Source: Methylomonas sp. LL1 (lineage in GTDB: Bacteria > Pseudomonadota > Gammaproteobacteria > Methylococcales > Methylomonadaceae). From it: a stretch of DNA of 64,000 nt. The notes beneath the pieces are model-generated. The model worked only from the letters and a program-made list of their open reading frames with translations, did no database searches and was not told where the DNA came from. Position numbers and translations under genes: made by a program. Numbering within the stretch: the stretch's first letter is position 1; every line of letters begins with the position of its first letter. The stretch is taken from assembly GCF_015711015.1 (NCBI RefSeq), contig NZ_CP064653.1:3162001-3226000 (forward strand), written 5' to 3'. Below, one piece after another: positions 55,381-57,262 of the stretch.

Positions 55381-56352
55381 TTACTCGACACTGGCAATAA
55401 TAATCGCCCTAACCGGCGCCGGCAGCCCTTCGCAAGTCAACTCATCATTTGTGGGATCAAGAAAATCCCGCAACGAATTAAATCGCATCCACTCCGTGCC
55501 ACGCTGCTCTTGCACGGTTGTTTTAGAAACATCACACAGCCTGACGTTTTTAAAGCCGCAGCGCCGCATCCATAGCATCAAGGCTTCGATACTCGGCAGA
55601 AACCATACATTACGCATTTGGGCATAGCGCCTCTCGGGCAGCAATACCGTAGAGGCATCACCCTTGACCACCAAGGTTTCTAGAACCAACTCACCACCCG
55701 CGCGTAAACAACCTTTCAATTCCAGCAGATGATCGATTGGCGAGCGCCTGTGATACAAAACTCCCATTGAAAATACAGTATCGAAAAACTTCATCTCAGC
55801 CGGCATTTGCTCAATACCCAATGGCAGCAAGTAGATCGCCGCATCCCCGTACAATTTGCGCAAAGCCTTAAACTGCATAATATTGAGCAACGTCGGATCT
55901 ACCCCAACAGCCAACCGCGCCCCGGCCCCCAGCATGCGCCAGCAGTGATATCCGTTTCCACACCCGACATCCAGAACCGCCCGATTATGCAGCGGCGAAA
56001 TATGATTTTTCAATCGATCCCATTTCCAATCCGATCGCCATTCGGTATCGACATCAATTCCAAATACCCGATAAGGACCTTTACGCCACGGATGCAATTG
56101 TTGCAAACTTTCCCGTAACCGCGAACGAAGTTGGTCCGACAAATCCTCGCAGTTACCGATCCGAACCGACTCGAGTAAATCGACACTGCTTGGAGACAAG
56201 TTAGGCAAGCCATCCACTACCTTTTGCCAACGAGCCAAATCGCCGTGCGATTGCTGATCGAAAGCGATCTCGACCTGTTCGGAAATCCACTTGACCCAAG
56301 CAGCCCCGCCGGCCTGTTCCAACACCTGGTAAAACGGGCTGTAATCCATCAT
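55381..56352 (-). CDS. cmoB: tRNA U34 carboxymethyltransferase CmoB
   Basis: 323 residues from ATG 56352 (the next ATG is equally possible). The Rossmann SAM site is VLDVGCGNGYHCWRMLGAG, and conserved stretches are HPWRKGPYRVFGIDVDTEWR, FDTVFSMGVLYHRRSP and ELVLETLVV. CmoB uses carboxy-SAM made by CmoA to form cmo5U at the tRNA wobble position. Its start overlaps the old cmoA stop (TGATG), as in an intact cmoAB operon, but cmoA itself is wrecked here. CmoB looks intact and full length. Confidence 0.95.
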   Translation of the reverse strand: MMDYSPFYQVLEQAGGAAWVKWISEQVEIAFDQQSHGDLARWQKVVDGLPNLSPSSVDLLESVRIGNCEDLSDQLRSRLRESLQQLHPWRKGPYRVFGIDVDTEWRSDWKWDRLKNHISPLHNRAVLDVGCGNGYHCWRMLGAGARLAVGVDPTLLNIMQFKALRKLYGDAAIYLLPLGIEQMPAEMKFFDTVFSMGVLYHRRSPIDHLLELKGCLRAGGELVLETLVVKGDASTVLLPERRYAQMRNVWFLPSIEALMLWMRRCGFKNVRLCDVSKTTVQEQRGTEWMRFNSLRDFLDPTNDELTCEGLPAPVRAIIIASVE

Positions 56353-56572
56353 TTCAACGCCATCATCGAAGCGAAATGAAATACTGAAACCAGATTTCCG
56401 CGCCAATGAAGCCCGCAATTAAAAAACGTTGCCGATGCACCGAGAACGATTCCGCCAACAACCCTATCGCCGAGATTATGTTCGGAAACACATTGACTAC
56501 GAATTCATCAAATTTAACTGTCGCGATTTCGCCAAGCGGGTTGGCATGAAGAGAATCTTTGTGAAATGACAT
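56349..56572 (-). pseudogene. cmoA: Remnant of carboxy-SAM synthase gene cmoA
   Basis: The reading frame starts like CmoA (MSFHKDSLHANP..., FDEFVVNVFPN), lacks the usual ~10 residues between VFP and IIS (IISAIGLLAESF), then jumps to the CmoA C-terminus (HRQRFLIAGFIGAEIWFQYF). About 180 internal residues, including the whole SAM-binding core, are missing. After TATTTC one base is lost; read in the restored frame the end is FASMMALK-stop, matching normal CmoA tails, and this stop overlaps the cmoB start. At least three lesions, so this copy cannot be functional. Confidence 0.85.
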
Positions 56573-56620: not shown

Positions 56621-57262
56621 TTATGAATGGTTGTTGCCGGCCAGGGCTTCGTTATTGCGTTTAGCCAATTGATTGATCACTTCCTGCAAGGAACCGGTAC
56701 GCTCGACTTCGTTTTTGAAGCTGGTTCTATAGTTTGTGACCAAACTGACCCCTTCGATCAAAATATCGTAAACCTTCCATTCGCCCTTGTTGAACAACAT
56801 CCGGTAGTTCACCGCGATAGGTTGCAAACCAGGCTGCAATATTTCGGTTTTGACCATCACCTTACGCTCGTCTTCTTCGGGGTTGATCGGCAAAAACCTG
56901 ACATTCCATTCCTTGAATTCGACAAATGCCCTAGAGTAGGTTCTGATCAATAAGGTTTGAAACTCTCTTTTAAACGCATCTTTTTCCGATAAAGACGCTT
57001 CTTTCCAGAGCTTACCCAGCACCAACGAGGAAATCAGATCGAAATCCGCGCGCGGATAGATTACTGAATGTACAAACTCGGTAATCTTGCGAAAATCCTT
57101 GGTAAACCCGGGATCCTGCATCCGCACTTTTAACTGACTGGATGCATCTTCGATCAGCTTTTGCGGCTCGATTAAATCAGCAGCACTGGACTGGGCCACC
57201 ACCAGAACGTTTGCAAAAAAACTAAACAACAAAATTAGTACTACTTTTAAATAACGTTTCAT
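56621..57262 (-). CDS. mlaC: MlaC/Ttg2D family phospholipid-binding protein
   Basis: 213 residues. A signal peptide (YLKVVLILLFSFFANVLVVA) is followed by the MlaC-type domain: VIYPRADFDLISSLVLGKLW, AFKREFQTLLIRTYSRAF, NYRMLFNKGEWKVYDILIEG and VSLVTNYRTSFKNEV. Such periplasmic proteins carry phospholipids between the membranes. The rest of an mla operon is not here, so the symbol marks the family; the HpnM branch of hopanoid transport is an alternative. Divergent from hemB with 132 bases between. Confidence 0.8.
   Translation of the reverse strand: MKRYLKVVLILLFSFFANVLVVAQSSAADLIEPQKLIEDASSQLKVRMQDPGFTKDFRKITEFVHSVIYPRADFDLISSLVLGKLWKEASLSEKDAFKREFQTLLIRTYSRAFVEFKEWNVRFLPINPEEDERKVMVKTEILQPGLQPIAVNYRMLFNKGEWKVYDILIEGVSLVTNYRTSFKNEVERTGSLQEVINQLAKRNNEALAGNNHS

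Follow-up and report, generated by a model that had tools for sequence, protein, structure and literature searches.

The closest described system is the canonical CmoA-CmoB pathway to cmo5U34, encoded in E. coli by cmoA (b1870) and cmoB (b1871). The window (the whole 64-kb stretch of Methylomonas sp. LL1 DNA that was analysed, 64,000 nucleotides) shares with this pathway a CmoB with the carboxy-SAM site and an ancestral locus of the usual overlapping cmoA-cmoB form, but differs from it in that the native cmoA is a stub and the putative cofactor maker is a diverged CmoA encoded some 200 kb away. Xenologous gene displacement, in which a gained homologue stands in whilst the native gene decays, is a known evolutionary process, and the present case resembles it in that a horizontally gained homologue would replace a decaying native cmoA; it is unlike it in involving several lineages, one gene of a two-gene step and stubs at different stages, and in that the donor module here has another partner.

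Dedicated partners other than CmoB form a second point of comparison; TglF, MccB and CmoX are soluble enzymes, and TglF is itself CmoB-like. The pairs TglE/TglF and MccS/MccB (in the available text of PMC10491745) and the phage pair CmoA/CmoX (in that of PMC12783734) each combine a CmoA homologue with a partner that is not CmoB. Like these homologues, the diverged CmoA is encoded beside a non-CmoB enzyme; unlike theirs, its neighbour is a predicted PEMT/ICMT membrane methyltransferase that is only a candidate for the use of carboxy-SAM.

We consider it highly probable that the window genome represents a xenologous displacement in which a transferred, diverged CmoA replaced the native cmoA, cmoB was kept and carboxy-SAM is supplied in trans. 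The apparently broken pathway is then a natural experiment: if this is true, a non-orthologous enzyme provides carboxy-SAM in trans, and annotation from adjacent cmoAB genes misses such strains. Displacement itself is a known process, and interest is raised by its recurrence and by the different partner of the donor module. A literature search returned nothing relevant on a cmoB pseudogene combined with horizontal transfer, or on cmo5U in Methylomonas.

The native cmoA locus

On the minus strand a gene that we take to be mlaC-like is followed by the cmoA stub, by cmoB and by a small gene, presumably ComEA-like (Table 1). The remnant is placed at the native locus because the mlaC-like gene precedes cmoA-cmoB in relatives too. 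An earlier sequence-only reading had described a decayed cmoA here, and its coordinates, strand and overlap of the old stop with the cmoB start proved correct, whilst the alignment to relatives' cmoA that it proposed as a check bears out the identity of the remnant as CmoA.

Table 1. Features of the native cmoA-cmoB locus, in positions of the window
Feature	Position	Strand	Remarks
Native cmoA remnant, original start to original stop	56349..56572	-	224 of about 732 bp kept
Point of 33-bp in-frame deletion (11 codons)	56473..56474	-	DNA alignment, position hand-counted
TTGTTGGCGG, junction of ~474-bp in-frame deletion	56452..56461	-	DNA alignment
Single missing base, frame shift near 3' end	56377..56378	-	DNA alignment, position hand-counted
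New stop of 69-residue remnant frame, just upstream of cmoB start	56363..56365	-	
Old cmoA stop, overlapping cmoB ATG	56349..56351	-	cmoB start at 56350-56352
Intact cmoB, 323 aa from ATG at 56352	55381..56352	-	TIGR00452 482 bits vs cut-off 275
Presumed mlaC-like gene ahead of remnant	56621..57262	-	precedes cmoA-cmoB in relatives' loci read

DNA alignment against four intact cmoA genes of the genus accounts for the length of the remnant (732 - 33 - 474 - 1 = 224 bp). Missing from it are two in-frame segments, of 11 codons and of about 158 codons from the core (the R199 region among them), and a single nucleotide close to the 3' end. The block of ~10 residues and the single base of the sequence-only reading thus stand, and its estimate of ~180 core residues falls to ~158 codons. 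The larger deletion fuses two LLA-coding stretches via TTGTTGGCGG, and both intact relatives inspected have LLA codons at residues 49 and 207; the presence of such stretches at both ends suggests that this loss arose between short direct repeats. The exact 10-mer TTGTTGGCGG was present at both places in neither of the two relatives searched.

The 69-residue remnant frame matches the N-terminal part of the two NCBIfam CmoA models (NF011995, E 1.4e-6; TIGR00740, E 9e-4), and no Pfam model matched it. When 11 canonical CmoA proteins were compared with the 400 nt upstream of cmoB (tblastn, a small database of 36 stretches), the remnant was recovered with E 2.5e-16, and along its length it differs from relatives at many bases. 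Both pseudogene tests gave positive results, with CmoA homology at the native place upstream of cmoB and loss of the catalytic core, and the remnant is a real decayed native cmoA.

The CmoB of the window keeps Lys91, Tyr200 and Arg315, which make up the carboxy-SAM site and are conserved in the aligned CmoB rows (K91 in 62/62, Y200 in 61/62 and R315 in 62/62). In the available text of PMC4482062 these residues are proposed to recognise the carboxymethyl group, Lys91 being critical, and SAM is described as usable by CmoB only weakly, the lysine disfavouring it. With this site intact a switch of CmoB to SAM was rejected, and the earlier suggestion that CmoB works on a different donor finds no support. 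In the CmoB tree (57 of the 62 aligned rows, the duplicate L010 as well as L047, L157, L162 and L163 having been dropped) the window CmoB falls in a starred clade (21 rows) that contains every genus row in the tree, along with G077 and G116 (98/85, the bootstraps of this tree and of the CmoA tree being not quite settled), and its named relatives are mostly Methylomonas. An open frame of 462 codons encodes TrhP, with 62% identity to the E. coli protein, and the one stop counted in the match is, by its coordinates, the last codon. No full-length TrhO was detected in this genome; in E. coli deleted for trhO, TrhP carries most of the hydroxylation, according to the available text of PMC6599085.

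The full-length CmoA of the same genome and its origin

One full-length CmoA over the TIGR00740 cut-off is encoded at C2:3016434-3017150, ~200 kb from cmoB (L034 9428-10156), and scores 249.7 bits along its full length against a cut-off of 193.3; neither a second CmoA over this cut-off nor a canonical cmoA elsewhere was found in the 2-contig, 100% complete genome. We label the predicted product a diverged CmoA, and claim no orthology to E. coli CmoA, because it misses the stricter NF011995 equivalog cut-off (174.3 vs 285 bits, the canonical CmoA of G036 reaching 326.9). It matches the E. coli CmoA structure 4gek over its whole length (E 3e-47) and keeps Y39, D62, D117, E164 and R199, the last of which is Arg in all 72 rows tallied (the window genome included) and in E. 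coli, and Ser in two CmoA-like outsiders. Arg199 of CmoA binds the carboxymethyl group and holds its carboxyl, as given in the available text of PMC3663124. Two reported contact positions are altered, A70 to Thr and N132 to Cys, the latter position being Cys in 29/30 other class-2 rows and Ile in one. Synthesis of carboxy-SAM is the putative activity of this protein.

One explanation offered in the sequence-only reading, that another cmoA exists elsewhere, therefore holds, in that the genome search found this full-length gene, and the tree and the AU test indicate that it is not a moved native copy. In the CmoA tree of 73 proteins (one genome, G014, being contained twice, as L040 and L010), one side (100/100) unites E. 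coli CmoA with the family's canonical proteins. The CmoA of the window genome groups with Methylobacter (98/81, 100/93) inside a methanotroph clade (99/94), and this clade branches among Bacteroidota rows with modest support (81/85, midpoint root). Forcing the diverged protein together with the canonical CmoA of the genus costs 324 log-likelihood units (AU test, p 8.2e-39), by which a moved native cmoA is ruled out as the source of the intact gene. Among the matches listed, its nearest named relatives are Methylobacter proteins (84-88% identity); an unnamed metagenome protein is 89% identical, and the Bacteroidota relatives are about 70-77% identical.

The diverged cmoA shares an overlap with the gene downstream of it, which encodes a PEMT/ICMT-like membrane methyltransferase (the pair spans G000:C2:3016428-3017869; L034 9428-10869). 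GC content is 42.6% in the pair and 52.4% over what remains of its 19.9-kb locus; of 313 slices of equal length from the 64-kb window, 3.2% go as low as the pair. Among the 37 genus genomes a full-length membrane partner was found only in this one (E 1e-10), with two partial matches of 35-38% elsewhere. Judged from its sequence, the diverged CmoA is a horizontally acquired homologue, and the tests for displacement returned an incongruent CmoA tree, a congruent CmoB tree and a remnant of the native gene.

Under the displacement proposed here, the lineage would have gained the diverged cmoA together with its downstream membrane methyltransferase gene, most likely from a Methylobacter-like methanotroph, the module being ultimately related to the Bacteroidota one. 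The foreign CmoA would supply carboxy-SAM and so make the native cmoA redundant, with decay by three deletions, and the retained cmoB would use carboxy-SAM made in trans to make cmo5U. We infer the donor, the order of gain before loss, the synthesis of carboxy-SAM by the foreign CmoA and its use by CmoB for cmo5U; the source and the order of events depend on the midpoint-rooted tree, and we infer the direction of transfer likewise.

In G030 the native cmoA has indeed moved: mlaC-cmoA lies beside def, and cmoB stands alone. Among the fetched loci, genes that we take to be def-fmt-rsmB adjoin cmoA only in the window genome and in G030, and they were not found beside relatives of the diverged cmoA. 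The foreign pair of the window genome and the unrelated native mlaC-cmoA of G030 (L046 9144-10588) both lie directly upstream of def-fmt-rsmB, where insertion may be favoured. A possible second case of diverged CmoA in the genus is P0097, a class-2-like CmoA with 79% identity to that of the window genome, from a metagenome-assembled genome that bears the name Methylomonas sp.

The membrane neighbour of class-2 CmoA

The partner (L034 10156-10869) resembles isoprenylcysteine/PEMT/LmtA-like methyltransferases in passing PF04191 (PEMT; 42.7 vs cut-off 25) and in the matches of its 27-sequence profile to the ICMT structures 5v7p (E 3.8e-10) and 4a2n (E 2e-7). It is unlike them in falling below the cut-offs for ICMT (PF04140, 22.2 vs 24), for isoprenylcysteine (NF040696, 47.9 vs 160), for LmtA (TIGR04571, 82.6 vs 325) and for MddA. 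The partner alignment shows invariant RNPLY-GN and EE stretches, and the predicted structure is all-helical (pLDDT 84.4, pTM 0.81, low at 64-77). By the membership test applied, it counts as a PEMT/ICMT superfamily protein and a predicted membrane methyltransferase.

Its association with class-2 CmoA was examined in a locus set that comprises the best 80 of 540 found and is biased towards similarity to the query. In this set cmoA is followed by the membrane gene, in the same orientation, in 65/66 non-methanotroph loci (Chitinophagaceae, Sphingobacteriaceae, Hymenobacteraceae, Spirosomataceae, unranked Bacteroidota and two labelled Sphingomonadales) and in 8/14 methanotroph loci, the median gap from cmoA being 10 nt between matches and the maximum 523. 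The exception among the 66, L055, is labelled candidate division KSB1 and encodes a CmoA 87% identical to the query. Also present in this locus, as in Methylobacter, is a divergent homologue of the membrane gene, and the contig is probably mis-binned Methylobacter. In L053, L054 and L056 (Methylobacter luteus, M. marinus and BlB1) a homologue of the membrane enzyme, 35-37% identical, lies divergently upstream of the class-2 cmoA and replaces the usual downstream one, and in the methanotroph loci L059, L063, L091 and L191 no homologue was found in the fetched stretch. CmoB was detected in 8/8 methanotroph and in 0/29 non-methanotroph class-2 genomes tested (E 1e-20; 37 of these best 80 of 540 loci given), and the genomes of L059, L063 and L091 (G041, G075 and G078) contain it.

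A phylum sample of 247 genomes around Pedobacter sp. BS3 (G232, L078) held eight with CmoA over the cut-off. Two of these, G232 and G236 (L085), have a close membrane partner beside CmoA, both known beforehand, so that the sample added no new pair; in the other six CmoA is nearer the canonical query (by similarity, not by tree) and cmoB lies directly downstream in 6/6. Within this small sample, then, the identity of the partner goes with the type of CmoA. A 36% identical membrane-gene homologue occurs in G346 and G440, which have no CmoA at E 1e-30, and for the CmoA-like proteins below the cut-off in G413, G471 and G482 the fetched stretch showed no CmoB and no close membrane partner, beyond one weak match (24%).

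Within the methanotroph family the membrane gene (E 1e-25) occurs in 34/80 genomes with only non-canonical CmoA vs 2/109 with canonical CmoA (G116, which has both kinds, and G204), a difference with Fisher p 3.9e-13 that the relatedness of the genomes causes to be overstated; it occurs also in 1/12 genomes in which no CmoA was found. It lies near class-3 CmoA in 4/15 loci and in 0/48 fetched canonical cmoA loci, several genomes being counted twice there and most loci having 1.5-kb flanks only.

Canonical-like CmoA goes with CmoB, in contrast to the class-2 clade, which goes with the membrane enzyme, and this gene neighbourhood suggests that the usual neighbour of class-2 CmoA may use carboxy-SAM, making it a candidate new user of this metabolite. 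We tentatively put forward, as a possibility that falls somewhat short of an even chance, that the module of CmoA and PEMT/ICMT-like enzyme works without CmoB in Bacteroidota, that the partner is a carboxymethyltransferase embedded in the membrane, with a lipid or a membrane-bound molecule as its substrate, and that in methanotrophs carboxy-SAM also feeds CmoB in trans, freeing the native cmoA to decay. If this is true, carboxy-SAM is a shared metabolite and one half of a tRNA-modification pathway can be swapped repeatedly. A literature search gave nothing relevant on CmoA with isoprenylcysteine enzymes, or on carboxymethyl or carboxy-SAM with Bacteroidota.

Recurrence and alternative explanations

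Canonical CmoA is present in 33 of the 37 genus genomes and adjoins cmoB in 32/33, with G030 as the exception and with G029, whose cmoB is cut by a contig end, counted among the 32. The window genome (G000) and G010 carry diverged CmoA of two different classes, 45% identical, and no CmoA over the cut-off was found in G024 or G035, both 83% complete. Across the family sample of 201 genomes CmoA occurs in 189 (180 with exactly one, E 1e-30) and CmoB in 186. For rows listed with both places, canonical CmoA adjoins cmoB in 84/85 and diverged CmoA in 0/31 (class 2, 0/13; class 3, 0/18), counts which leave out 34/150 CmoA rows with no listed cmoB place and in which classes are set by bit score, such that truncated canonical genes may account for a few of the low-scoring rows.

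Stubs of the native cmoA were found beside 5/36 solo cmoB genes (G000, G041, G067, G089 and G157; tblastn, 400 nt upstream, E 1.6e-6 to 6e-20), and a sixth, very short stub in G010, comprising the last few cmoA codons, was recognised by eye. On the CmoB tree these six carriers fall into four lineages (three or more if starred branches alone are counted), and the switch between canonical and non-canonical CmoA needs 9 changes on that tree (bootstrap 8-10; at least 3 by starred branches). The G157 stub reads through cleanly, with 45 residues between the old start and the old stop, and those of G041, G067 and G089 carry internal stops. In the 30/36 solo cmoB loci where none was found, displacement fits only if the losses are old. 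Possession of an intact canonical cmoAB plus a diverged cmoA makes G116 an expected intermediate of displacement. A match beside cmoB in L141 (E 0.11) was dropped and read as the tail of mlaC.

These data also bear on other accounts of the locus. That the remnant is an assembly or consensus error, a deletion in the assembly having been entertained in the sequence-only reading, is barely credible, given three separate lesions, a remnant that differs from relatives at many bases, a complete two-contig genome in which no canonical cmoA was found at another place, and similar stubs in other genomes. Decay of wobble-U34 modification in this lineage, with cmoB next to be lost, was also raised in that reading and could draw on the one dead pathway gene at the native locus and on the full-length TrhO that was not found; we hold it to be very improbable, since cmoB is intact and both CmoA and CmoB are present across the family sample at the frequencies given above, and the pathway is probably intact because the foreign CmoA with R199, the intact CmoB and TrhP are all present. 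It is improbable, if less so, that the foreign CmoA serves its membrane partner only, with CmoB making low-level mo5U from SAM or idling. The regular downstream membrane gene of class-2 loci and the weak use of SAM by CmoB are in keeping with such a division, but CmoB retains the lysine that disfavours SAM, the three loci L059, L063 and L091 lack the membrane gene in the fetched stretch and belong to genomes that have CmoB, and carboxy-SAM is shareable, host CmoA feeding phage CmoX in E. coli in the available text of PMC12783734.

A further account, unlikely on present evidence and compatible with displacement, holds that the stub persists as a short leader whose frame couples translation to cmoB. 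The cmoA 3' end with its overlapping stop is kept in 6/6 stubs, although this may only reflect the need to spare cmoB, and both large deletions here and the deletion of G157 are in frame, although the additional 1-bp deletion closes the frame early in the window and the stubs of G041, G067 and G089 have the internal stops already mentioned. Pairing of canonical cmoB with the anti-Shine-Dalgarno sequence is slight (median 0.3 kcal/mol, 18 genes including that of E. coli), which counts in favour of this account, but the medians do not separate the groups, being -0.4 for the six stub carriers and 0.55 for 28 stubless genes.

In G024 (L047 2101-3789) mlaC adjoins cmoB with no cmoA between and no stub found, and the CmoA of this 83% complete genome may be unassembled. 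Two weak CmoA-like proteins, in G013 (L037) and G024 (L038), were left out of consideration, being below the TIGR00740 cut-off and having Ser at the R199 position. By eye, that of G013 (L037 9340-10068, 147.9 bits) lies within a cluster of sugar-/asparagine-synthetase-type genes, and it is probably a different enzyme, belonging to a cluster for a surface glycan or a natural product.
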